NCBI GenBank assembly: GCA_017471785.1
Contig: JAFURP010000049.1
Location: 1 to 37,419, forward strand
Direction: 5' to 3'
DNA length: 37,419 nt
DNA from: Clostridia bacterium
Lineage (GTDB): Bacteria > Bacillota > Clostridia > Christensenellales > Borkfalkiaceae
Numbering within the stretch: position 1 is the stretch's first letter; each line of letters begins with the position of its first letter. The position numbers and the translations under genes are program-made. Below, piece after piece: positions 9,384 to 25,264 of this stretch. The notes beneath the pieces are model-generated. The model saw only the letters and a list, made by a program, of their open reading frames with translations. It did no database searches and was not told where the DNA came from.

Positions 9384-11558
9384 ATGGAACGATTACGAGA
9401 AAAAAAGAGGATTTATTCGCTTGCGGTCGCCGTATTGGCGACCCTGTCCTTCGGCTTCGCAGCGGCTTGCGGCAAGAAAAAGACGAACGATTTCACCGCG
9501 GATATCCTGACGCGCGAGGACTATACCTCGGTGTATAGCCAAATCGGCAAGGGACTTACGATCGATAAGGTGGTGGAAAGGGAGGACGGTAGGGCGTACG
9601 CAAGCGTGGACGGCGTGGAGTACGAGCTGGGTATGGACTTTTTGTCGATGGCGATGGTGTATAACACCGCGCCCGCGGGGGAATTCGACACGCCTACCAA
9701 GGTATACAACGAATGGTGGCGGCTGTTTATGCAGCGTTGGAATTTGCTCGTGCCCGAAGCGCCCCTTTATTCCAACCAGTATTACGACGTGTATAACGCC
9801 AAGATAGACGAGCTGAAGACCAACCCCTATTGGAGCGTGACGGACGCGATCGTGGGCGCGAAGATCGTGTCGGGCGAAAACGCCGTCGTGTTGGGCAGCA
9901 ACACCGAGCTTTCGGGCGCGTTTCGCGACGCGTCGTTCGGTAAGTCCTCCCCCGGGGCGGCGGACCTCGCCGTGCAAACCTTGACGAGCGGCTATTCCAC
10001 CGTCGTCACCGACGAGAGCGGCTCGTTCGTGTGGGCGGATACGGATATCGTGCGCGCGCATACGGAAACGGAAAGCGGGGACGGCAGTAAGACCTTTACG
10101 ATAACCATAGCCGAGGATCTGACCTTTTCCGACGGTTCGCCTATCAAAGCGGAGAATTATCTCGCGGCATTGCTCGTCGGCAGCAGCGCGGTGATGAAGA
10201 GCGCGGGCGGCGGCGACGCGGCGGGGTTGACGATCGTCGGCTACGAGGCTTTTAACGCGCAAACGGGGGAGGGCGCGCCCGTGCCCTTTTCGGGAGTGCG
10301 GCTTTTAAGCCCCTATTCCTTTTCCGTAACGGTCAAGCCCGAGTACGCGCAATATTACTACGCGATACGTTACGGAGCGTTTACGCCCGTGCCTTTAACT
10401 ATGTATTTGGGCGAATATTCGATCAAGGACGACGGCGAGGGGGCGTATATCGAAAACGGCTTTTACGAAAAAACGGAAAAGAACGGCGTGACCGCCTTTA
10501 CGATGAGCGACAGGCTTGCGCAAAGCTTGGCGAACGCCTCCGCAGCCGCCTTTCCCTATTCGGGACCTTACTACGTGGAAAGCTACGACCAAAGCGCCAA
10601 GACGGCTACCCTCAAGCGCAATACCCGCTATAAAGGGGATATCCGCGGCAGGGCGAGTATCGACCGTATTTCGTACGTGAAGATCGTTTCCGAAACGCAG
10701 CTCGATCAACTTAAAAAGGGGCGCGTGGACGTGCTTGCCTCCATTACGGGCGGCGAGGAAACGAAGGCGGCGCTTGCGATCGTGGACGGCGTGAAGTTCA
10801 AGGAAACGCATTACGATCGGGCGGGGTACGGTAAGCTTGCGTTCCGTTGCGATTTCGGACCCACGCAATTTGCCGAGGTGCGCCGCGCGGTGATGCACAC
10901 CATCGACCGCGACGAGTTCGCGCAGGTATTTACGGGCGGCTACGGGAGCGTGGTGCACGCGCCCTATTATACGGGCTCGGAAACCTATCTTGCCGTAAAG
11001 GACAAGCTCAAGCTCGATAAATACGAATACAGCGTGGAAAGGGCGAAAGCGTGCTTGAAAGAGGGCGGCTGGACGTACGACGGAGAGGGTAAGCCCTACG
11101 ACGAGGCGCGCGGCGGCGTGCGGTATAAAAAGCTTTCGGGGTACGAGCTGAGCTTTAACAATCTCGCGTTCGCTTCGACGGATAATAAATATAAGACGGT
11201 GAAGATCGACGGGGAATATTATATGCCTCTCGTGATCAATTGGATGGGGACACAGCCCAATCCCGTCACCGATCAGCTCATCACCGCTTGGCAAAACAAT
11301 CCCAACGCCGGCGAAAGGATCGGCGCGTATATCACCTATTCGTCGGGGGATATGACCTCCGCGCTCTACGGCGAATACTATCAAATGCCCGCCTACGGCT
11401 TTACCAAAGCGCGCTTTGGCGCGGTCAATTTCGCCACCGGCTTTACGAGCGCGGTGTACGATCAATCCTTCTATTGGACGGTCGACCCCTCTATGTACGA
11501 CAATTACAGTAGTAACTTTTTGATGGACGAAGCGGATTTCTATGAAAAGCGCGTATAG
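9384..11558 (+). CDS. oppA: Oligopeptide ABC transporter substrate-binding lipoprotein
   Basis: Extracytoplasmic family 5 solute-binding protein that delivers peptides to OppBC. It begins with a basic stretch, a hydrophobic core and a lipobox-like FAAAC at about residue 29, so it is probably lipid-anchored. TFTITIAEDLTFSDGSPIKA (about 225-244) resembles the family 5 signature. At 724 residues it is longer than the usual 530-600. The extra material lies mainly at the N-terminal side (about 40-160, including YNEWWRLFMQRWN and YSNQYYDVYNAKI). It heads the opp cluster. The final codons (EKRV) and TAG lie inside the left arm of the repeat at 11544-11672, suggesting the natural C-terminus was slightly altered. 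Peptide binding is inferred from family and context. Confidence 0.88.
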   Translation: MERLREKKRIYSLAVAVLATLSFGFAAACGKKKTNDFTADILTREDYTSVYSQIGKGLTIDKVVEREDGRAYASVDGVEYELGMDFLSMAMVYNTAPAGEFDTPTKVYNEWWRLFMQRWNLLVPEAPLYSNQYYDVYNAKIDELKTNPYWSVTDAIVGAKIVSGENAVVLGSNTELSGAFRDASFGKSSPGAADLAVQTLTSGYSTVVTDESGSFVWADTDIVRAHTETESGDGSKTFTITIAEDLTFSDGSPIKAENYLAALLVGSSAVMKSAGGGDAAGLTIVGYEAFNAQTGEGAPVPFSGVRLLSPYSFSVTVKPEYAQYYYAIRYGAFTPVPLTMYLGEYSIKDDGEGAYIENGFYEKTEKNGVTAFTMSDRLAQSLANASAAAFPYSGPYYVESYDQSAKTATLKRNTRYKGDIRGRASIDRISYVKIVSETQLDQLKKGRVDVLASITGGEETKAALAIVDGVKFKETHYDRAGYGKLAFRCDFGPTQFAEVRRAVMHTIDRDEFAQVFTGGYGSVVHAPYYTGSETYLAVKDKLKLDKYEYSVERAKACLKEGGWTYDGEGKPYDEARGGVRYKKLSGYELSFNNLAFASTDNKYKTVKIDGEYYMPLVINWMGTQPNPVTDQLITAWQNNPNAGERIGAYITYSSGDMTSALYGEYYQMPAYGFTKARFGAVNFATGFTSAVYDQSFYWTVDPSMYDNYSSNFLMDEADFYEKRV

Positions 11559-11672
11559 CACGCCTCCTGATCGCAAAAACGGAGCTTGCTCTCGCTTACG
11601 TACGCTTATGTACGCGCGCTTCGAGCAAAACCGCGTATTTTGCGACAATTAGGCGCGCTCTCCGCACTTTTC
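11544..11672. repeat. Stop-anchored hairpin element, copy 1 (oppA-oppB)
   Basis: Outer arms are GAAAAGCGCG (11544-11553, inside the oppA 3' end) and CGCACTTTTC (11663-11672), pairing 9 of 10. Inside are the family motif GCGTATAGCAC (11551-11561), a long imperfect hairpin TCGCAAAAACGG...CCGCGTATTTTGCGA (11571-11645), and an apical GTAC-GCTTAT-GTAC (11600-11613). It lacks the downstream GAGTATACAA palindrome seen in copies 2-4. It fills most of the oppA-oppB gap. Confidence 0.7.
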
Positions 11673-11706
11673 GGTGGGTTGGAATGGGGGGATAGGAAGA
11701 AATTTT

Positions 11707-12720
11707 ATGCTTAAATATATTTTCAAACGCATCTTATATATGCTGGCGGTTTTGCTGTTGTTGTCTTTGCTGATCTATCTCGTCTACAATTTATTACCCG
11801 TGGATAAGGCTGCGGATATGGCTATGCAGGAGATCGCGGCGAATAAAAATTTGAACTATGCCGAACGCTATTTGTATTGGCAACGCCGTTACGGCTTGGA
11901 CGGAGGGCTGTTCACCCGTTATTTGCGTTGGCTGGGGCTGACGCCCTTTTACGACGGCTCGTATAACGGGCTGTTGCAGGGCAATCTCGGCAGCTCGGTG
12001 GCGTACGGGAAGCCCGTGGCGGAGGTGATCAAAACGCCTCTGCTTAACACCGTGTTTCTTAACCTGCTTGCCACGACGGCGGCGCTCGCCATAACCCTTC
12101 CCCTCGGCGTGTATTGCGCGCGGAAACGGGGCGGTAAACGGGATTTCGCCGTGCAGGTGGGGACCATCGTCGGCTACAGCGTGCCCACCTTTATCATCGC
12201 CATTTTGTTTATTTGGCTCTTTGCGATCCAGCTCAATCTTTTCCCCGTTTCGGGTATGTCCTCGGTGGGCAAGGATTACACGGGCTTCCGCGCGGTATTG
12301 GACAGAATATACCATTTTGCGTTGCCCCTGATCGTAATGACCTTTTGTTCGCTCGGGGGAATGACGAGGTACGTGCGCGCTTCTATGATCGAAGCGCTGC
12401 GTATGGACTGTATCCGTACGGCGCGCGCAAAGGGGCTTCGCGAACGGCTCGTCGTGCGCTCGCACGCGTTCCGCAACGCCTTGATACCCATTATCTCCCT
12501 GCTCGTAGGCTGGCTGATCGGGATATTTTCCGGCTCTATTATGATCGAAAACATCTTCGGTATCAACGGGATCGGCAGGGTCTATTTCGAGGCGCTCTCC
12601 ACGGGCGATAACGAGATAGCTTTGGCTATGCAAATGTTCTATATCGTCATCGCGCTCCTCGGCAACCTATTGATCGATATAGCGTACGGGCTTGCCGATC
12701 CCCGTATCCGCTTGGGGTAA
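11707..12720 (+). CDS. oppB: Oligopeptide ABC transporter permease OppB
   Basis: Inner-membrane permease of the binding-protein-dependent type, 337 residues. The first membrane segment directly follows MLKYIFKRILYM, and about five more follow. The cytoplasmic coupling (EAA) loop IEALRMDCIRTARAKGLRE is clear, as is the GLD...GNLGSSV extracytoplasmic segment typical of OppB/DppB. ATG at 11707 is preferred over the upstream in-frame ATG at 11674 because the latter would add MGWNGGIGRNF of repeat-derived sequence before a canonical N-terminus; a GGAAG-type ribosome site precedes 11707. Repeat elements flank it on both sides, which is unusual inside an opp operon. Confidence 0.93.
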   Translation: MLKYIFKRILYMLAVLLLLSLLIYLVYNLLPVDKAADMAMQEIAANKNLNYAERYLYWQRRYGLDGGLFTRYLRWLGLTPFYDGSYNGLLQGNLGSSVAYGKPVAEVIKTPLLNTVFLNLLATTAALAITLPLGVYCARKRGGKRDFAVQVGTIVGYSVPTFIIAILFIWLFAIQLNLFPVSGMSSVGKDYTGFRAVLDRIYHFALPLIVMTFCSLGGMTRYVRASMIEALRMDCIRTARAKGLRERLVVRSHAFRNALIPIISLLVGWLIGIFSGSIMIENIFGINGIGRVYFEALSTGDNEIALAMQMFYIVIALLGNLLIDIAYGLADPRIRLG

Positions 12721-12923
12721 AATTGCGTATATACTTCGCATTTCTTCGTTGTCGCTTAGTTGCGTACTATCGGTACGCGCCCTCGCTCCGCCTTGAACTG
12801 CTCGCATCTACGCAATTTTACTTCGCTCGGCTTTGAGTATACAATTATAATTGTAAATCCGCGCCCTCCTTGTCTTGCTCGCATCTCCGCCGTTTTACTT
12901 CGCTCGGCTCGGGGTGTACAACG
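12718..12923. repeat. Stop-anchored hairpin element, copy 2 (oppB-oppC)
   Basis: Perfect 12-bp outer arms TAAAATTGCGTA (12718-12729, beginning with the oppB stop codon) and TACGCAATTTTA (12809-12820). The apical hairpin is GCGTAC-TATCG-GTACGC (12762-12778). To the right come CTTCGCTCGGCT and the palindrome TACAATTA|TAATTGTA (12840-12855). The right half is partly duplicated: TTTTACTTCGCTCGGCT occurs exactly at 12816-12832 and again at 12893-12909. The 357-base gap before oppC holds only this element, the repeat at 12926-12993 and the mini-hairpins at 13010-13053. Confidence 0.8.
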
Positions 12924-12925
12924 AT

Positions 12926-12993
12926 GTCATTGCGTTCAGCTTTAGCTATTTGGCGTAGCCAAGGAGGGCAAAGCCCGACGCGGCAATCTCATA
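12926..12993. repeat. GTCATTGCG...GGCAATCTCATA dispersed repeat, copy 1
   Basis: Begins with GTCATTGCGTTCAGCTTT (12926-12943) and ends with GGCAATCTCATA (12982-12993). Both ends recur exactly at 22444-22461 and 22498-22509. ATTGC and GCAAT near the ends are inverted. It resembles REP/MITE-like intergenic repeats seen in many bacterial genomes. Confidence 0.7.
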
Positions 12994-13009
12994 CAAATAT
13001 TACCACAAC

Positions 13010-13053
13010 GCCGCCGTAGGCGGCAATTCACGAAAACGCAGTTTTCAATTCAC
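13010..13053 (+). repeat. Mini-hairpins with AATTCAC linkers before oppC
   Basis: GCCGCC-GTA-GGCGGC (13010-13024), AATTCAC (13025-13031), GAAAAC-GCA-GTTTTC (13032-13046), AATTCAC (13047-13053). Both stems are perfect with three-base loops and unrelated stem sequences. The oppC ribosome site AAGGAG lies about 14 bases downstream. Same architecture as 1189-1268 and 28925-28968. Confidence 0.8.
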
Positions 13054-13077
13054 TACCGTCTGTTCCAAGGAGTTATT

Positions 13078-14985
13078 ATGGAAAAACCGCAAAAGGAAAA
13101 CCCTATCGTCCGCGGCTGCAAGCGGATAGCTTCGTGGTTTCGCCGCGCCTTTACGGGCAATAAATGGCAGGACGCGGAGGGGGAGATCGAAAGTCCGTCC
13201 AAGCTTTTGCGGCAAAGCTTTTTCCGTAAAAAGGGCGCGGTGGTCGCCCTCGTTTTGCTCGTCGGATTGTTTTTGTTCGTCTTTATCGCGCCCCTGTTCG
13301 CGCCTATGGACGTGAACTACACCGATCCCCTGCAACAAAACGTCGCGCCCGTGTATTCCCTGCGTAAGGTGCCGCGAAAGCTCAAAGGCGCGGTGCAAAC
13401 GATCGACGGCTTTTCCGGCTTCACCGTCGGGCTGTCGAGCGAAGGCGAGGCGTTCGTTTGGGGGAGCAGTACGGACAAGCTGCAAAAGACCGACCTGAAA
13501 GAGCTTCCCGACTCCGTAAAGGAGGAGGGCGCGGCGCATATCGCGGCGGGCAAGGATCATATCCTTGCCGTTACCAAATCGGGAAAACTCGTCGGTTGGG
13601 GGGATAGAAGCTGCGGTCAATACGGCTTCGACCAAATCTTGAACGCGCTTACCACGCCCGACGAGCTTGCCCAAGGGATCGCGCCCGAACGGGTCAAGCG
13701 GCTCGTATGCGGGTACCAAACCTCCGCGCTCGTTACCACGGAGGGCAAAGCGCTCGTTTGGGGTAATTTGAACGCCGTACGCAACCTTGCTTCGATGCAG
13801 GGCTTGGAGGGGGTGGCGGATATCGCGTTCACCAACTCGGCGGCGGTCGCGTTGCTTTTCGACGGTAGCGTTACGACGGGTAGCGAACGGGTGTTTACCT
13901 CTCTCGTCAGCTCGCGCGGCGCGACGGGCGCGACCTTGTCGGAATATCTTGCGGATAAGAAAGCGGTGGCGATCGCGACGACGAACAAATGCTTGGCGGT
14001 GCTTATCGAGGACGGAGAGCTGGTCGTTTCGGGCGTATTCGAAAACGGCGAGGAGCTGTTGCCCGTCTTGCAAGAGGGGGAATATTTTACCTCGCTCGAC
14101 GGGGGGACGCGCCACTTCGTCGGCGTGACCAACCTCGGCAACGCCTACGCTTGGGGGCATAACGCCTACGGACAATGCGAGCTGGAGCAAAACGGAAGCG
14201 CGGCGCGGGCGTTCGCCGGCTCGTTGCAAACTTACGTCGTCGACGGCGAGGGAAGGCTCGTACAAAGCGTGGGCTTAAAGGGGTATCCCTTGGGCACGGA
14301 CGGACGGGGCAGGGACGTGTTCACGCGCATTATCCACGGGGGTAAGATGACGATGACCATCGGCGCGGTGGCGGTGCTCGTTTCCTCGACGATCGCCGTG
14401 ATCGTCGGGTGTGTTTCGGGGTATTTCGGGGGCGTGGTGGATACCCTTTTAATGCGGATCACCGAAATTTTCTCCTCCATACCCTTTTTGCCCTTCGCTA
14501 TGCTCCTTTCGCAAATCATTAAAAATTACAATATTCCCGAAACCACCCGTATTTTTATCATCATGCTCATTTTGGGCGCGCTGTCGTGGACGGGCTTGGC
14601 GCGTATGATACGGGGGCAGGTGCTCGTCGAGCGGGAAAAGGAATTCGTCGTCGCCGCGCGCGCGATCGGCGTCAAGGAGCGCAGGATCGCCTTTCGGCAC
14701 GTACTGCCCAACGTCGTTTCCGTCATACTCGTCAGTATGACCCTCGATTTCGCCGGCTGCCTTTTGACGGAGTCCTCTCTTTCCTATCTCGGCTTCGGCG
14801 TGCAACAGCCGCAGCCTACTTGGGGAAATATGCTCACGGGCTGTAACAACAGCGTCGTCATACAAAATTATTGGTGGCAATGGCTATTTCCGGCGCTGTT
14901 TTTATCCTTGGCGACCATTTGTATCAACGTGGTGGGGGACGCCTTGCGCGACGCGCTCGACCCCAAGAGCCATCTGGAAAAATAG
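13078..14985 (+). CDS. oppC: OppC-type permease with inserted RCC1-like beta-propeller
   Basis: The 635-residue permease subunit of the peptide transporter is about twice the usual OppC length. Residues 1-50 are cytoplasmic and TM1 spans about 53-75. Residues about 88-395 (bases 13339-14262) contain seven spaced repeats ending in WGS/WGD/WGN/WGH-like turns: GEAFVWGSS, GKLVGWGDRSCGQYG, GKALVWGN, GSVTTGSE, GELVVSGV, GNAYAWGHNAYGQC and a last YVVDGEGRLV blade. This is the RCC1 (regulator of chromosome condensation 1) pattern. Normal OppC then resumes with YPLGTDGRGRDVFTR (403-417), further membrane segments and the EAA loop EKEFVVAARAIGVKERRIAF. The frame is uninterrupted, so this is one protein, with the propeller outside the membrane. 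AAGGAG precedes the ATG. The propeller's partner is unknown. Confidence 0.9.
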   Translation: MEKPQKENPIVRGCKRIASWFRRAFTGNKWQDAEGEIESPSKLLRQSFFRKKGAVVALVLLVGLFLFVFIAPLFAPMDVNYTDPLQQNVAPVYSLRKVPRKLKGAVQTIDGFSGFTVGLSSEGEAFVWGSSTDKLQKTDLKELPDSVKEEGAAHIAAGKDHILAVTKSGKLVGWGDRSCGQYGFDQILNALTTPDELAQGIAPERVKRLVCGYQTSALVTTEGKALVWGNLNAVRNLASMQGLEGVADIAFTNSAAVALLFDGSVTTGSERVFTSLVSSRGATGATLSEYLADKKAVAIATTNKCLAVLIEDGELVVSGVFENGEELLPVLQEGEYFTSLDGGTRHFVGVTNLGNAYAWGHNAYGQCELEQNGSAARAFAGSLQTYVVDGEGRLVQSVGLKGYPLGTDGRGRDVFTRIIHGGKMTMTIGAVAVLVSSTIAVIVGCVSGYFGGVVDTLLMRITEIFSSIPFLPFAMLLSQIIKNYNIPETTRIFIIMLILGALSWTGLARMIRGQVLVEREKEFVVAARAIGVKERRIAFRHVLPNVVSVILVSMTLDFAGCLLTESSLSYLGFGVQQPQPTWGNMLTGCNNSVVIQNYWWQWLFPALFLSLATICINVVGDALRDALDPKSHLEK

Positions 14986-14996
14986 GAGTAAGCTAT

Positions 14997-16028
14997 ATGG
15001 CACTTTTGGAAGTAAACGATCTGTTCGTGGCGTTTAGAACGCGCAAGGGCTTGGTGCACGCCGTAAACGGCGTGTCCTTTGCCTTGGAGGAGGGACGGAC
15101 CCTTTGTATCGTGGGTGAGTCCGGCTCGGGCAAGAGCGTGGCGGCGATGAGCGTTTTGCGGCTGCTCGACGAGAACGGGTATATCGAAAGCGGCGAGATC
15201 CTCTTCGAGGAGAACGGGGAAAAGACGGACCTCGTTTCCCTGACGAAAGATAAGCTGTACGCGGTGCGCGGCAATAAGATATCCGTGATCTTTCAAGAGC
15301 CGATGACGGCGCTCAATCCCGTCTTTACGATCGGCAGGCAAATTTCCGAGCCGTTTATCATTCACCGCGGTATGGACAAAAAGAGCGCCTTTGCGGAGGG
15401 CGTGAAAATGCTGGAACGGGTGCGTATCCCCACGCCCGAGCGCGTGATGAAGCAATACGCGCATCAGCTTTCGGGGGGTATGCGCCAACGGGTGATGATC
15501 GCGATGGCGCTCGCCTGCCGTCCCAAGATCTTGATCGCCGACGAGCCGACCACCGCGCTCGACGTTACCATTCAAGCGCAAATTTTGGAGCTGATGAAAC
15601 GGCTGCAAAGGGAGAACGGTACGGCGATCCTATTCATCACCCACGATCTGGGGGTGGTCAACGAGACGGCGGATCAGGTCGCGGTGGTCTATTGCGGTCG
15701 GGTGGTGGAATACGCCTCGCGTAAGAAAATTTTTCAAAGAGGGGGCTGTTCCCACCCTTACACCGAGGGCTTGCTCGCCGCTTTGCCCGAGCGGAGAAGG
15801 GCGGGGGAGCGGCTGGAATGTATCGAGGGCAACGTGCCCTCGCCGTTATCCCTGCCCAAGGGGTGTAAATTTGCGCCGCGATGTAAATATTGCACGCAAA
15901 AATGTATGGAAGCCGAGCCGCCGCTTTTCGAGCTTTCGGGCGGGCAAAGCGTGCGGTGCTTTTATCCCAAAAAGGAGGAAAGGAGAAGTGAAGAACACGC
16001 CAAGCTTGTTGTCCGTCGTCCGTCTTAA
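14997..16028 (+). CDS. oppD: Oligopeptide ABC transporter ATPase OppD
   Basis: Cytoplasmic ATPase of the peptide transporter, 343 residues. Walker [10 protein letters not shown]-loop [10 protein letters not shown], signature LSGGMRQR, Walker [13 protein letters not shown] and H-loop FITHDLG are intact. The C-terminal oligopeptide/dipeptide extension with [13 protein letters not shown] identifies the OppD/DppD class. The start is ATG at 14997 ([10 protein letters not shown]), 9 bases after TAGGAG and 12 bases after oppC stops; the longer upstream reading is oppC overlap. It overlaps the GTG start of oppF by 41 bases. Confidence 0.94.
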
Positions 16029-17322
16029 AAAATATTTTCCGCTCGCCAAAAGCTCTCTCTTTGCCAAAAAACGGCAGTATCTTCGTGCCAACGAGGACGT
16101 CACCCTCGATATCGTGGAGGGGGAAACCTTTGGTTTGGTGGGCGAGAGCGGTTGCGGTAAATCCACCTTCGGCAGAACGCTGTTACAGCTCTACCGCCCC
16201 ACGCAGGGGGAGGTGATCTATTACGGTAAAAGCTTGGAGGAGATCGCGCCGAGGTACGCTTTTCGCTTTTTGAAAAACGCGGAAAAATACCGCGCGGACT
16301 ACGCGAAAGAGCCGTCTTTGGACGGGAACGCGCACGAACCGGAATTCTTTGCCGCGGCGCGGATCCTCGGCGGACTGCTCGCGCTGTCCGAGGGGGACTG
16401 CAAACGGGGCGCGGCGCTCTACGCGGAGTATTTACGCCGACCGAGTGAGGTGCTTTTGCATAGATTTACGGAGTTTAAGCAAGCCGCGGAAAAGAGCGAG
16501 GGGTTCGCCGAGCTGGAGGCGCAAACGGGCGGCGTGGACCTGGCGCGGCTCACGACGGACGAGCTTCGCAGCCTCCGCAAGGACTTGCAAATCGTATTCC
16601 AAGACCCCTATTCCTCGCTCGACCCCCGTATGACGGTGGGGCAAATCATCGAGGAGGGGGTCGCCACGCATAAATTTTATAAGCGGGGGACGCCGCAAAT
16701 GCGCGCGTATATTTTGGATATTATGAAGCGTTGCGGCTTACAGGAGCATATGCTGCACCGTTATCCCCATCAATTTTCGGGCGGACAGCGACAGCGTATT
16801 TGTATTGCGCGCGCGCTTGCGCTCAAGCCGCGCTTCGTCGTTTGCGACGAATGCGTGTCCGCCTTGGACGCGTCCATTCAATCGCAAATACTCAATCTTT
16901 TGTCCGAGCTGAAGGAGAGGGAAGGGCTCACCTATCTTTTTATCTCGCACGATCTATCCGTCGTGCGGTATATCTCCGACCGTATCGGCGTAATGTATTT
17001 AGGGGATATCGTGGAGCAGGGCAATGCGGAGGAGGTGTTTGAAAATCCCCGCCATCCGTACACGATCGCGTTGATGAGCGCCGTCCCCACGGTAGGCAAG
17101 CGCGAGGGGGAGCGGATATTGCTAAAGGGGCATATGCCCAGCCCCGTAACGCCGCCGAGCGGCTGTAAATTCCACACCCGTTGTTTTATGGCGTGCGAAA
17201 AATGCAGGCAGGGCAAGGTGCCCGTGGTGGAGGTGGAAAAGGGGCATTTCGTCGCCTGTCATTTCGCGGAAAAGTCCACCGCCGAGAAGCAAAAGCTCGC
17301 GCGAAAGGGGGAGGAAGTGTGA
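15988..17322 (+). CDS. oppF: Oligopeptide ABC transporter ATPase OppF with internal insert
   Basis: Second ATPase of the transporter, 444 residues from GTG at 15988, which follows AGGAGGAAAGGAGAA and gives [17 protein letters not shown]; an in-frame ATG upstream (15871) would need a 158-base overlap with oppD. Walker A GESGCGKST is at 52-60, the Q-loop FQDPYSSLDP near 204-213, signature FSGGQRQR at 263-270, and H-loop FISHDLS. Walker B reads FVVCDECVSALD, with Cys where DEP is usual. Between the Walker A strand and the Q-loop (about 82-188) lies an insert of about 105 residues, largely helical and charged. The C-terminal SGCKFHTRCFMACEKC is the oligopeptide-type cysteine segment. Confidence 0.91.
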   Translation: MKNTPSLLSVVRLKKYFPLAKSSLFAKKRQYLRANEDVTLDIVEGETFGLVGESGCGKSTFGRTLLQLYRPTQGEVIYYGKSLEEIAPRYAFRFLKNAEKYRADYAKEPSLDGNAHEPEFFAAARILGGLLALSEGDCKRGAALYAEYLRRPSEVLLHRFTEFKQAAEKSEGFAELEAQTGGVDLARLTTDELRSLRKDLQIVFQDPYSSLDPRMTVGQIIEEGVATHKFYKRGTPQMRAYILDIMKRCGLQEHMLHRYPHQFSGGQRQRICIARALALKPRFVVCDECVSALDASIQSQILNLLSELKEREGLTYLFISHDLSVVRYISDRIGVMYLGDIVEQGNAEEVFENPRHPYTIALMSAVPTVGKREGERILLKGHMPSPVTPPSGCKFHTRCFMACEKCRQGKVPVVEVEKGHFVACHFAEKSTAEKQKLARKGEEV

Positions 17323-20616: not shown

Positions 20617-21336
20617 ATGTTAGAACTGAAGAATATAAGCTATAAGGTAGACGACGAGCTTGGTGAAAAATATATATTAAAGGATATCGATTTGACGCTT
20701 GACGAGCGGTTCGTGGCGTTTACGGGCCCCAACGGCGGCGGTAAATCGACGCTTGCCAAGGTGATCGCCGGTATTCTCAAGCCCACCTCGGGAACGATCT
20801 ATTTGGACGGAGAGGATATCACCGCGCTTTCGGTGACCGAGCGCGCGAAAAAAGGTATATCCTACGCCTTTCAACAGCCCGTACGCTTTAAGGGCTTGAC
20901 GGTACGCGATCTGATCAATATCGCCGCGGGAAAAACGCTCAAGGTGTCCGACGCCTGCGCCTATTTGTCGGAGGTGGGCATGTGTGCGCGCGATTATATC
21001 GATCGCGAGGTGAACGCTTCCCTTTCGGGTGGCGAATTGAAGCGGATCGAGATCGCCACCATTCTCGCTCGTAGCACCAAGCTTTCGGTGTTCGACGAGC
21101 CGGAGGCGGGGATCGATCTTTGGAGCTTTGGCAATCTCATCAAGGTATTTGAAAAGATGCACGAAAAAACGCAGGGGAACATTTTGATCATCTCCCATCA
21201 GGAGCGTATTTTGAATATAGCCGACAAGATCGTCGTGATCGCAAACGGCAGGATCAAAGAGCAGGGCAAAAAGAACGAGGTGCTGCCCTCGCTTTTGGGA
21301 CAAGACGCTTGTAAAGCGTTGACGGAAAAGCTGTAA
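20617..21336 (+). CDS. sufC: SufC-like Fe-S assembly ATPase
   Basis: ABC-type ATPase, 239 residues, that drives a SufB/SufD-type scaffold in iron-sulfur cluster assembly. Walker A GPNGGGKST, signature LSGGELKR, Walker B LSVFDEPEAGIDLW and H-loop IISHQE are intact. The DEPEAGID wording and FAFQQPVRF-type Q-loop (YAFQQPVRFKG) are SufC-like rather than transporter-like. It lies 12 bases before a single SufB/D-type gene with no sufS, sufU or second scaffold gene nearby, matching the SUF-like minimal system (SmsC). Confidence 0.9.
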   Translation: MLELKNISYKVDDELGEKYILKDIDLTLDERFVAFTGPNGGGKSTLAKVIAGILKPTSGTIYLDGEDITALSVTERAKKGISYAFQQPVRFKGLTVRDLINIAAGKTLKVSDACAYLSEVGMCARDYIDREVNASLSGGELKRIEIATILARSTKLSVFDEPEAGIDLWSFGNLIKVFEKMHEKTQGNILIISHQERILNIADKIVVIANGRIKEQGKKNEVLPSLLGQDACKALTEKL

Positions 21337-21348
21337 GGAGGTAGGCGT

Positions 21349-22275
21349 ATGGACGCGATCGAAAAGGATTTATTGCTGAAAATCGCCGACCTGCACGGCG
21401 TGCCCGAGGGGGCGTACAATATCCGCGGCAACGGCGAGCTTTCCGCGCGCAATACGACGGCGAATATCGATATCGTAACCAAGACGGACGGTAAATCAGG
21501 TATCGATATCTATATCAAGCCCCACACGAAAAACGAGAGCTTGCATATCCCCGTCGTTATCAGTAAGGCTGGCTTACAAGAGGTGGTATATAACGATTTC
21601 CATATCGGCGAGGGAGCGGACGTGGTGATCGTGGCGGGCTGCGGTATCCACAACTGCGGCGGCGTGGATATGACCTCGCGCCACGACGGCGTGCATACCT
21701 TTTACGTGGGGAAAAACGCCAAGGTGAAATACGTGGAAAAGCATTACGGCGAGGGGGACGGCAACGGTAAAAACGTGATGAACCCCGAAACGGTGGTGCA
21801 TCTCGAGGAGGGCGCGCGAATGGAGATGGAAACGACCCAGATCAAGGGTATCGATTCGACTAAGCGCGTCACCCGTGCGGATATGAAATCGGGGGCGAAT
21901 TTTATCGTCAAAGAAAAATTGTATACGCACGGCAAGCAATCGGCGGACACCGATTTTATCGTGGATATGAACGGAGAGGGGTGCAGCGCGGACGTCATGT
22001 CCCGTTCGGTAGCGGCAGGTACCTCCCGTCAAAACTTCGTATCGACGATGAACGGTAACGCACCCTGCCACGGGCATACCGAGTGCGACGCGATCATTAT
22101 GGACGACGCGGCGGTCACCGCGGCGCCCTGTCTTTCGGCGAACCATATCGACGCGGAGCTTATCCACGAGGCGGCGATCGGTAAGATCGCGGGCGAACAG
22201 CTGATCAAGCTTATGACCTTGGGGCTTACCGAAAAGGAAGCGGAGGAGCAGATCATCAAGGGCTTCCTACATTAA
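21349..22275 (+). CDS. sufB: SufB/SufD-family scaffold, minimal (SmsB-like)
   Basis: Predicted scaffold partner of SufC, 308 residues, much shorter than SufB (about 465) or SufD (about 420-440). It has the right-handed beta-helix core pattern (HIPVVISKAGLQEVVYNDFH, then DVVIVAGCGIHNCGG with C98 and C103) and the conserved C-terminal SCLSANHIDAELIHEAAIGK-like segment (here CLSANHIDAELIHEAAIG). AAGGAGG precedes the ATG. The length and single-copy pairing with SufC fit the minimal SmsB type. Which cysteines bind the cluster is not known from the sequence. Confidence 0.88.
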   Translation: MDAIEKDLLLKIADLHGVPEGAYNIRGNGELSARNTTANIDIVTKTDGKSGIDIYIKPHTKNESLHIPVVISKAGLQEVVYNDFHIGEGADVVIVAGCGIHNCGGVDMTSRHDGVHTFYVGKNAKVKYVEKHYGEGDGNGKNVMNPETVVHLEEGARMEMETTQIKGIDSTKRVTRADMKSGANFIVKEKLYTHGKQSADTDFIVDMNGEGCSADVMSRSVAAGTSRQNFVSTMNGNAPCHGHTECDAIIMDDAAVTAAPCLSANHIDAELIHEAAIGKIAGEQLIKLMTLGLTEKEAEEQIIKGFLH

Positions 22276-22552: not shown

Positions 22553-23929
22553 ATGAGCGAACTTGCTTATAAAAGAACGAACGTATACGAAAAGGCGGAC
22601 GAAAAGCTCTTAAAGGAGATCTTCGATTACGCGGAGGGGTATAAGGTATTCCTGGACGAGGGCAAAACGGAGCGCGAGGCTTGCGCGTTTGCCAAAAGCG
22701 AAGCGATCAAAAACGGCTATAAGCCGTATAAATTCGGACAAAAGCTCGTCGCGGGAGATAAGGTGTACTACGATAACCGCGGTAAGAATTTGTACCTTAT
22801 CAAGGTAGGCACCAAGCCCGTGGAGGAGGACGGTATCCGTATCCTCGCTTCCCATATCGACAGCCCCCGTATCGATTTCAAGCAAGTGCCCTTGTACGAA
22901 ACGGAGGGCATCGCGTTTGCGAAAACGCACTATTACGGCGGTATCCGCAAATATCAATGGGCGACCGTTCCTCTCGCGTTGCACGGCGCGGTGGCGCTCA
23001 AGGACGGCAGCGTGATCGATATCAAGGTAGGCGAGGACGAAAACGATCCCGTATTCTACATAAGCGACCTTTTGCCCCATTTGGCGGCGAAGCAAAACGC
23101 AAAGTCGCTTGCGGAGGGTATCGGCGGCGAGGATCTCAACGTGTGGCTGGGCAATCTTCCCTACACCCTTGCGGAAAACGAAAAGGATAGAACCGTCAAG
23201 GAAAACCTGCTTAAAATTTTGAACGAGAAATACGGTATGGCGGAGGCGGATTTCTTGAGCGCCGAGCTGTGCGTGGTGCCTGCCTATAAGGCAAAGGATA
23301 TCGGCTTCGACCGCGCGCTTATGGGTGCGTACGGGCACGACGACCGCGTTTGCTCCTATCCCGCGTTTACCGCCCTTTTCGACGAGCCGGACGGCGAGCA
23401 TACCGTTATGGTCATTCTCGCGGATAAAGAGGAGATCGGGAGCGAGGGAACGACGGGTATGCAATGCGTGCTGTTCACCGACCTTATCGACGCGATCGCG
23501 CAATCGTTTAACGTTTCCTCGGCGGCGGTGCGCGCCAATTCCAAATGCCTTTCCGCGGACGTGAACGCAGGGTACGATCCCAACTTCCGCGACGTATGCG
23601 AGCCGCTCAATACGGCGTATATCTCCTGCGGCGCGGGCGTTACCAAATTCACGGGCGCGCGCGGCAAGGGCAGCTCCAACGACGCGGACGCGGAGTTTAT
23701 CGGCTTCTTGCGTAAGATCTTCGACGAAAACGGCGTCGTTTGGCAAACGGGCGAGATGGGCAAGGTAGACGCAGGCGGCGGCGGTACGGTGGCGAAATAT
23801 ATCGCCAAAATGAATATCGACACCATCGATATCGGCGTGCCCGTGATCTCGATGCATTCGCCCTTCGAGGTGATCTCCAAAGCCGATTTGTACGAGGTGT
23901 ATCTCGCTTTCCGCGCTTTCTTGAAATAA
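22553..23929 (+). CDS. M18-family aminopeptidase (first copy)
   Basis: Cytoplasmic zinc aminopeptidase of the M18 family (APEB/aspartyl-aminopeptidase-like), 458 residues. Family motifs: the metal ligand ASHIDSPRIDF (about 100-110), YGHDDRVCSYPAFTAL, the catalytic/metal pair DKEEIGSEGTTGMQ and the C-terminal PVISMHSPFEV. AAAGGAG lies about 8 bases before the ATG. A second, divergent M18 gene converges on it from the right. Together with the opp transporter, a role in breaking down imported peptides is plausible but inferred. Confidence 0.92.
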   Translation: MSELAYKRTNVYEKADEKLLKEIFDYAEGYKVFLDEGKTEREACAFAKSEAIKNGYKPYKFGQKLVAGDKVYYDNRGKNLYLIKVGTKPVEEDGIRILASHIDSPRIDFKQVPLYETEGIAFAKTHYYGGIRKYQWATVPLALHGAVALKDGSVIDIKVGEDENDPVFYISDLLPHLAAKQNAKSLAEGIGGEDLNVWLGNLPYTLAENEKDRTVKENLLKILNEKYGMAEADFLSAELCVVPAYKAKDIGFDRALMGAYGHDDRVCSYPAFTALFDEPDGEHTVMVILADKEEIGSEGTTGMQCVLFTDLIDAIAQSFNVSSAAVRANSKCLSADVNAGYDPNFRDVCEPLNTAYISCGAGVTKFTGARGKGSSNDADAEFIGFLRKIFDENGVVWQTGEMGKVDAGGGGTVAKYIAKMNIDTIDIGVPVISMHSPFEVISKADLYEVYLAFRAFLK

Positions 23930-23943
23930 TTTTTACGCAAAAG

Positions 23944-23978
23944 AAAAAGGTTTTCCCGGACTTGGGAAAACCTTTTTT
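23944..23978. terminator. Bidirectional terminator between the two M18 genes
   Basis: AAAAAGGTTTTCCC (23944-23957), loop GGACTT, GGGAAAACCTTTTTT (23964-23978). A- and T-runs on both flanks serve both convergent genes. Confidence 0.93.
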
Positions 23979-23992
23979 GCCGTTTTTGCGCG

Positions 23993-25264
23993 TCAGCGAA
24001 TAATATAGCCGTCCTCCTCGACGAGAAAATCGGAGGAATAGAACGCCGTTAAGGCGTTGACCAGCTCGGTGTAGTCCGATTTGGCAAAGCACTCGCAAGC
24101 GGAATGCATAGCGAGCTGTGCGATACCGATATCCGCGCCCGCCATTCCAAAACGCGTGACCGCCGAAGCGCCGAGAGTGCTGCCGCTACGCACGTCCGAG
24201 CGGTTGAAAAAGCTTTGCCGCTTTACGCCCGCCTTATCGAGCAGGGTCTTTACGACGACGGAGGAGATCGCGTCCGTAATATACGCGCCGCCCGCGTGCG
24301 ATTTGATCACTACGCCGCCGCCCAGCGCAGCCTTGTTGGTCGTATCCGATTTTTCGGGGTGATTGGGATGCGTCGCGTGCGCGTTATCCACCGAAAGGAG
24401 GAAGGAGGAGGCGAGCGCCTTGTAATATTCGTTGTCGTCGAAACGGAGGGCGTACGCGATCCTACGCAATGCGTTTTCGAGGAAATCCCCGTCCGCGCCT
24501 TGGGCGGTACGATTGCCGATCTCTTCCGCGTTCATAAACGCCGCTACGCACACGCCGTCGCTTTCCGCCGCGGAGAGCAAGCCCTCCAAGCTCGCGTAGG
24601 CGCTCGTCAAATTATCGATGCGGGGAGAAGCCAAAAATTCGTCGTTCACGCCGAAGAAGTAAGGGGCTTGCGCGTTGACGAGATACAGATCGTAGGAAAG
24701 CACCTTGCCCTCGCCCGAAAGGCGTTCCAGCCAGTCCGTTTCCCCGTCCGCAAAGCCCAAGACGGGTTGTAGATCGATCTGCGGATTGACGGCAAAGCCG
24801 TCGTTCACGCCGCGGTTTTGATGGGCGGCAAGGGAGGGTATGGTGACGAGATAGGGAGAAACGACCGTTTCCGCGCGCACCCGATTGTTTTCGCTCTTTA
24901 CCACGCGTCCCGCGATCCTCAAGGGACGGTCGAAGAAGGAATACCAAACGCCGCCGCCGTATGGCTCGGTGTTGAGCGTAGCAACGACGCCCTTTTTCTC
25001 CACGGGATTTTCCTTGAGCTTGAGCGCGGGCGAATCGAGGTGCGAGGCGGCGATCTTATAGGAGAAGCTGTCCAGATCGCCGACGACGAACGCCACCAAA
25101 CAGCCGCCGCCCCGTTCGACGAAATATTTACCGCCCTCGCAAAGCTCCCATTCCTCCGTTTCCTTTAACCGCTTGAAGCCGTTTTCCGATAAAACCGCGC
25201 GGATATTTTCACAGGCGTTGTACGCCGTGAGGGAAGTGCTTAAAAAATCGAGTAATTTTTCCAT
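23993..25264 (-). CDS. M18-family aminopeptidase (second copy)
   Basis: Second zinc aminopeptidase of family M18, 423 residues, minus strand. Motifs: ASHLDSPALKLKENPV (metal-ligand His/Asp), EPYGGGVWYSFFDRPL, FLASPRIDNLTSAYASL (Asp ligand), MNAEEIGNRTAQGADG (Glu pair) and NAHATHPNHPEKSD. The wording differs clearly from the neighbouring M18 protein (for example GNRTAQGA against GSEGTTGM), so this is an old paralogue or separate subfamily, not a recent duplicate. It has its own promoter at 25301-25329 and shares the terminator with the first copy. Confidence 0.92.
   Translation of the reverse strand: MEKLLDFLSTSLTAYNACENIRAVLSENGFKRLKETEEWELCEGGKYFVERGGGCLVAFVVGDLDSFSYKIAASHLDSPALKLKENPVEKKGVVATLNTEPYGGGVWYSFFDRPLRIAGRVVKSENNRVRAETVVSPYLVTIPSLAAHQNRGVNDGFAVNPQIDLQPVLGFADGETDWLERLSGEGKVLSYDLYLVNAQAPYFFGVNDEFLASPRIDNLTSAYASLEGLLSAAESDGVCVAAFMNAEEIGNRTAQGADGDFLENALRRIAYALRFDDNEYYKALASSFLLSVDNAHATHPNHPEKSDTTNKAALGGGVVIKSHAGGAYITDAISSVVVKTLLDKAGVKRQSFFNRSDVRSGSTLGASAVTRFGMAGADIGIAQLAMHSACECFAKSDYTELVNALTAFYSSDFLVEEDGYIIR

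Follow-up and report, generated by a model that had tools for sequence, protein, structure and literature searches.

The opp operon and its enlarged permease

The window analysed here, a stretch of 37,419 nucleotides from a draft genome of a Clostridia bacterium (NCBI GenBank assembly GCA_017471785.1, contig JAFURP010000049.1), contains a complete oppABCDF operon at positions 9384-17322. The oppC gene of this operon is one uninterrupted frame (13078-14985, plus strand, no internal stop) that encodes a permease of 635 amino acids, and a domain predicted to be a seven-bladed propeller of the RCC1/BLIP-II type is set into it after the first transmembrane helix (TM1). A continuous OppC frame with an RCC1-type insert had been proposed in an earlier reading made from the letters alone (the sequence-only reading), and the OppC_N, RCC1_2 and BPD_transp_1 matches along the single frame bear this out. 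That reading bounded the propeller at 13339-14262 (residues 88-395); the domain stands, but its limits are better placed at 13360-14277. The features are as follows (pLDDT, predicted local distance difference test).

9384-11558, plus strand: oppA, by family an extracellular peptide-binding lipoprotein of 724 amino acids (Pfam PF00496, SBP_bac_5, E = 5e-31)
11674-12720, plus strand: oppB, first permease subunit, 348 amino acids, without a large insert (Pfam BPD_transp_1, E = 1e-36, and BPD_transp_1_N)
12721-13077, no strand: oppB-oppC spacer of 357 bp, containing a dispersed repeat
13078-14985, plus strand: oppC with the inserted propeller, 635 amino acids
13231-13299, plus strand: TM1 of OppC, residues 52-74, a helix in the model (OppC_N at 39-91)
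13360-14277, plus strand: predicted seven-bladed RCC1/BLIP-II-like propeller, residues 95-400, about 306 residues (Pfam, PDB profile search, model, Foldseek, VIA-align)
14278-14982, plus strand: OppC core with the GTD-GRD motif, the remaining transmembrane helices and the coupling loop (PF00528 at 440-630)
14997-16028, plus strand: oppD, ATPase subunit without an insert, 60 residues from Walker A to Q-loop (PF00005, PF08352)
15988-17322, plus strand: oppF, ATPase subunit of 444 amino acids, GTG start inferred (PF00005, PF08352)
16234-16527, plus strand: helices inserted in OppF after Walker A and ahead of the Q-loop, at about residues 83-180 (model block pLDDT 93-98 over 81-180)

The permease carries the two domains of the OppC family in their order, each above its curated cut-off: OppC_N (PF12911) at residues 39-91 (E = 8.7e-11, 42 bits against 23.9) and BPD_transp_1 (PF00528) at residues 440-630 (E = 1e-32, 113.6 bits against 26.4). 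Its operon has the composition of Opp/Dpp systems, with a binding protein, a second permease and two oligo_HPY ATPases. Against the Opp4C equivalog model NF045476, the window OppC scored 306 bits, below the required 350.

Predicted fold and position of the propeller

A search against RCC1 profiles placed the insert among RCC1 repeat proteins, since RCC1_2 (PF13540) matched at E = 3e-21 with 75 bits against a cut-off of 22. Two further profiles were similar but fell below their cut-offs: RCC1 (PF00415) slightly so at residues 354-372 (19.6 against 21.7), and the full-length RCC1-like model PF25390 (WD40_RLD) at 91.8 bits against 150 despite E = 7e-26. A profile of 62 relatives was searched against the PDB; its OppC part matched OppC structures (8z21 at E = 2e-67), and its inserted part matched UVR8, HERC2, RCC1 and BLIP-II at E = 6e-33 to about 3e-15. 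All 3 RCC1_2 matches in the window's own genome, an assembly that is 83% complete, lie inside oppC.

AlphaFold2, run on the 62-row alignment, gave residues 95-400 as a closed propeller nested in the OppC fold. It has the seven blades that the sequence-only reading had expected (106-129, 152-175, 206-230, 246-278, 296-319, 337-360 and 377-399), and pLDDT was 86-97 across 31 ten-residue blocks (91-400) with a single exception at 80. A disordered linker in place of the propeller is not supported by this model. The nearest solved folds were UVR8 and the bacterial inhibitor BLIP-II by Foldseek and VIA-align, with HERC2 also among the nearest, and VIA-align aligned the predicted propeller along its length with both BLIP-II and UVR8. 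The surrounding protein keeps the whole-domain fold of a solved OppC, with 287 residues of the OppC of 8j5t aligning to model residues 34-635.

UVR8 has a cross-interface cluster of tryptophans besides its W-G motif. The only tryptophans of the window propeller are W128, W174, W228 and W359, all within W-G motifs, and UVR8-like light sensing was therefore rejected.

Residues 1-51 of OppC, before TM1, hold 12 lysines and arginines versus 6 aspartates and glutamates; the loop at 75-413 holds 29 versus 39. The positive N-terminus in front of TM1 predicts that the propeller, in the loop between TM1 and TM2, lies outside the cell, as the sequence-only reading had it.

Distribution and origin

Within the genus, a full-length propeller OppC was found in the window's own genome and in 25 of 36 others. 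Only 1 of 24 genomes from other families of the order had one (G058; 60 relatives plus the own genome were searched). In a class sample of 391 genomes, at least 16 besides the own genome carried it, in nine further families. In a phylum sample of 398 genomes, 15 matched at E 1e-25, and at least 12 of these were new, in four families outside the class; set aside were the own genome, one genome already in the class sample (G124) and one with another RCC1 protein (G817). Sequence for closer comparison was drawn from 11 of the 12, all but G744. The class and phylum counts are lower bounds because at most the five best candidates were scored per genome. The architecture is thus present across lineages, in at least 15 families including those of the window and G058. 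Metagenome-assembled genomes with a propeller OppC include Oscillospiraceae, Lachnospiraceae, Eubacterium, Solobacterium and Erysipelotrichaceae, several of them from animal guts.

Further searches name organisms and proteins. A contig scan with two short core motifs, which gives no counts, listed matches at 74 loci, of which 16 were propeller OppCs (L057-L071 and L088) and the others ordinary OppCs. Two protein searches returned 1561 and 1875 proteins; the best 120 of each were read, and all 240 had RCC1-type matches, one (P0138) without a permease domain and one (P0114) without the N-terminal one. Because these 240 were selected as the closest relatives, they carry no information about OppCs in general. 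Where propeller OppCs had names at the source, the names were generic, for example 'ABC transporter permease subunit'.

As the source of the window is a draft assembly (61 contigs, 83% complete), the fusion could in principle be an assembly or annotation error. There is next to no chance of this. The same frame recurs in tens of separate assemblies, two of them single-contig genomes (G102 and G084), and in the listed protein clusters, and an artefact was rejected on the strength of these many independent intact copies.

A maximum-likelihood tree was built from 231 columns of OppC cores with the propeller excluded; its bootstrap stopped slightly short of settled. Genus propeller loci L002-L020 were left out and 2 of 64 non-propeller loci were dropped. 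One branch, with support 100/99, has all 52 propeller OppCs on the same side, a grouping shared by 99% of the 200 bootstrap trees. A single origin is not rejected by this tree, in which non-propeller sampling was uneven, with many Pseudomonadota, and most rows of the propeller clade had been collected with the propeller as bait. In a quick tree, the propeller OppCs met at an open fork with four OppCs of the same order, including the second OppC of the window's genome (L027), and with a long-branched trio from Nitrospinota and Deferribacterales. The other three same-order OppCs have large inserts of their own in the TM1-TM2 loop.

L023:5833-7404, L024:5773-7596 and L025:4331-6508: OppCs from further families in this order, in which about 200-400 residues separate TM1 from the GTD motif

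None of these three inserts had a Pfam match at gathering scores. They correct the statement of the sequence-only reading that OppC normally has only a short loop here, and such non-propeller inserts in related OppCs mark the TM1-TM2 loop as an insertion hotspot. The propeller could accordingly be a neutral passenger in the insert-tolerant loop of one OppC lineage, and the divergence of the propeller (mean identity 0.35) is exceeded only by that of the OppF insert. We consider this improbable, however. In 50 sequences of more than 580 amino acids the frame stays fully open and the W-G and G positions recur, the propeller's divergence is correlated with that of OppA (below), and the clade spans two classes by kinship labels with no member lacking the propeller, although most rows were baited with it.

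One protein of a Clostridia-class genome also bears RCC1-like repeats on a very different scale. The stretch G108:C4:18119-106258 (L181-L186 joined) is one uninterrupted reading frame for 29,380 residues. Its product begins with a signal-peptide-like stretch, contains about 160 RCC1-like W-G motifs, carries a C-terminal repeat rich in threonine and aspartate, and is predicted to be a giant secreted RCC1-repeat protein.

The OppF insert

Most propeller operons have a second enlargement, one absent from the sequence-only reading. Of 50 propeller operons with a readable OppF, 41 have 197-251 residues between Walker A and the Q-loop (about 150-200 extra residues), whereas the window's OppF has 153. 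The distance was 55-59 in 8 propeller operons, namely L066 and seven that belong to the window's genus or stand close to it on the tree; another genome labelled as the window's genus (G032, locus L021) had 222. Outside the 50 readable operons, oppF of L168 (9722-11282, genome G574) lies in two overlapping frames, a frameshift or sequencing error. The OppD subunits of propeller operons were normal, with 56-62 residues.

In 42 operons without a propeller (36 far relatives from the contig scan and six from the order), the distance was 49-56 in 41 and 138 in the remaining one, L028. All 42 had been re-measured on an alignment because pattern counts were unreliable: the strict Walker A/Q-loop pattern was unreadable in 20 of them, and a looser one was falsely long for L079 and L081. 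L028 has a large other insert in its OppC loop as well as its 138-residue OppF stretch.

A profile of the long insert matched 18 of the 391 class genomes, namely all 16 propeller genomes outside the genus plus G134 and G162. The G134 match covers 55 residues of a 69-residue frame that lies at one end of a 4.2-kb contig in which no opp gene was found, and the G162 contig ends within oppD; with these contig limits, neither shows an OppF insert in an operon without a propeller.

The extent of the window's OppF from its GTG start agrees with homologues of 443 and 456 amino acids, which cover 99-100%. It was modelled with high confidence as an OppF in which a cluster of helices takes up about residues 83-180; the VIA-align matches listed for it were ABC (ATP-binding cassette) ATPases and are uninformative on the insert itself. 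The alignment with long-insert OppFs of 540 amino acids covers 98% of the window's OppF, and the shorter insert of the window is best read as a reduced form.

In Escherichia coli Dpp, the ATPase DppF is the partner of the permease subunit DppC (PMC12136057), which by homology puts the propeller and the OppF insert on one half of the transporter. We infer that the two may work together, although the eight propeller operons without the OppF insert mean that the propeller is separable from it.

Divergence of the propeller and OppA

Pairwise divergence was compared between operon parts. In 34 complete operons, with the rest of the operon regressed out, the partial correlation between OppA and the propeller was 0.66 (jackknife 0.62-0.67; 0 of 5000 permutations as high), the highest of any subunit pair; that between the propeller and its own OppC core was -0.27. 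Seven of 41 propeller loci had been dropped because a gene was missing or its frame short. Both OppA and the propeller evolve fast, and the propeller diverges faster than every other part except the OppF insert, so the analysis was repeated with quadratic terms and the OppF insert as a control. In this repeat (7 of 52 propeller loci dropped, and the 36 of the remaining 45 with a long insert used), OppA and the propeller still correlated at 0.52, with 0 of 2000 permutations as high. The correlation supports, but does not prove, a propeller that works with OppA.

A possible role of the propeller

Our favoured reading, to which we give a probability of roughly one half, is that the propeller acts as a clamp or docking platform holding peptide-loaded OppA over the channel. 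The AlphaFold-Multimer models published for the pneumococcal Ami system have the TM1-TM2 loop of AmiD in contact with lobe 2 of the binding protein, for which two extracellular domains of AmiC are a potential clamp (PMC11192437). Provided that AmiD corresponds to OppC, the propeller takes the position of that AmiD loop. The propeller loops would contact OppA as the AmiD loop and the AmiC domains do in those published models. Guided docking, one of the roles put forward in the sequence-only reading, thus has indirect support from the correlation with OppA and from the AmiC precedent. More weakly, the OppF insert, directly before the Q-loop, may couple or tune ATP hydrolysis on the C-F half.

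Several observations weigh against this role. The contact between propeller and OppA is one that we infer, and the models made here are of single chains. Conservation in the 50 sequences is mostly at structural W-G and G positions, and the long inter-blade loops are variable (mean score 0.354). A conserved binding face, sought in the same sequences by the conservation of strand and loop classes, was not found; the two hairpin-loop classes scored alike (0.515 and 0.516), so that no face of the propeller was distinguished. OppA also correlated with the OppC core (0.51, the second-highest value), and the propeller with OppD (0.31), in the first analysis. In the repeat, the controls were weaker but not null, at 0.27 for propeller and OppF insert (0 of 2000 permutations as high) and 0.21 for OppA and OppF insert (10 of 2000). 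The distance correlation can stem from shared fast evolution or ecology, and its pairs are not independent. The search found no propeller OppC in 11 of the 36 other genus genomes, three of which are 93-96% complete, and the long-insert profile at E 1e-6 missed the window's own OppF.

Some of the same data would fit a sensor, a role also raised in the sequence-only reading. On binding an extracellular ligand or effector (a small molecule, peptide or protein), the propeller would gate the transporter, and the OppF insert would form the inner half of this switch. Propellers of the RCC1 type have a wide variety of binding partners, and the solved folds closest to this one include UVR8, BLIP-II and HERC2. 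The OppF insert sits on the same transporter half in most operons, and it shares the extra correlation of 0.27 with the propeller. We nevertheless regard a sensor as unlikely, given that conservation picks out no pocket residue beyond the structural motif, that the strongest partner signal is OppA, and that 8 propeller operons have no OppF insert.

If the propeller does dock OppA, the system may be a distinct class of importer, in which the OppC/OppF half has gained matched modules, an outer propeller and an inner helical lever by the Q-loop, that relay OppA docking to ATP hydrolysis; this wider proposal is tentative and on balance doubtful. Few ABC transporters have been studied as closely as peptide importers, yet the literature searched (open-licence papers) held no description of an RCC1/BLIP-II-like propeller in OppC, in an ABC permease or in a channel of this kind, and no characterised importer of such build, in line with the sequence-only reading. 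One source deals with RCC1-like proteins of Hepatoplasmataceae that are not transporters (PMC10928387). On this literature, a peptide importer of the ABC type that bears a propeller as its ectodomain, and in most members an elaborated OppF as well, would be new in form. The system offers a natural experiment on binding-protein recruitment and its coupling to ATP use, and the propeller can be produced alone for binding tests.

Operon surroundings

The transporter is likely an oligopeptide importer, judged from its family and from M3-type metallopeptidase genes, which adjoin 9 of 44 propeller operons within the stretches fetched. The one of the nine that was scanned (L022:11128-12822) is an M3 family oligoendopeptidase by TIGR02289. 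Such neighbours are consistent with feeding on oligopeptides. They could also fit a propeller that, in line with the cell-wall binding suggested in the sequence-only reading, anchors or spaces the transporter on the cell wall or on a surface structure, such as a peptidase, and so concentrates peptides near the channel; other RCC1-repeat proteins are frequent in the class (partial matches), one of them the giant with a signal-peptide-like start. However, M3 metallopeptidases are usually cytoplasmic, and no wall-binding domain was matched in OppC by Pfam, and we give an anchor little credence.

The N-terminus of OppA is lipobox-like as read from its sequence, and in complete propeller operons oppA lies upstream of oppB. 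The spacer between oppB and oppC, counted to the first ATG of oppC, is short in most propeller operons, below 20 bp in 40 of 45. The dispersed repeat in the window's spacer (12718-12930) has 52 matches in its own genome, itself counted, and locus L030 has a spacer of about 600 bp at the corresponding place. No RNA element was found in the window at Rfam gathering scores. Promoter and terminator patterns in and around the operon were close to background, with counts of 7 and 12 versus 4.7 and 12.3 in shuffled sequence.

Downstream, an ABC ATPase gene is followed by a gene for a single SufBD-like protein of 308 amino acids (20617-22275), resembling a minimal SUF pair, and two M18 aminopeptidase genes lie tail to tail at 22553-25264.

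Comparison with known systems

The solved type I importers of the Opp/DppABCDF kind (E. coli, 8z21 and 8z1y; Mycobacterium tuberculosis, 8j5t and 8wdb) have neither the OppC propeller of about 306 residues nor the helical OppF insert of the window system. BLIP-II (1jtd, 3qhy) is a beta-lactamase inhibitor, whereas the window propeller, about 20% identical to it, is embedded in a permease. UVR8, RCC1 and the RCC1-like domains of HERC proteins belong to soluble eukaryotic proteins, and the tryptophan cluster of UVR8 is absent from the window propeller.

The OppCs of L023, L024, L025 and L028 share the insertion site, from TM1 to the GTD motif. Their inserts are of another kind, however, and OppF has no insert in L023-L025. 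For OppF, the NCBIfam model NF043078 (649 positions), which we take from its name to be that of Mollicutes, is longer than usual, with its extra length upstream of the part that aligns best.

The pneumococcal AmiACDEF differs in that the enlarged subunit is AmiC (498 amino acids, in what is probably the OppB-like position), whose domains are not termed propellers in the text consulted; the window system enlarges OppC, and its OppB, at 348 amino acids, has no large insert. Like the window system, however, Ami has a permease with an enlarged extracellular part, and for that part a clamp role has been proposed (PMC11192437).
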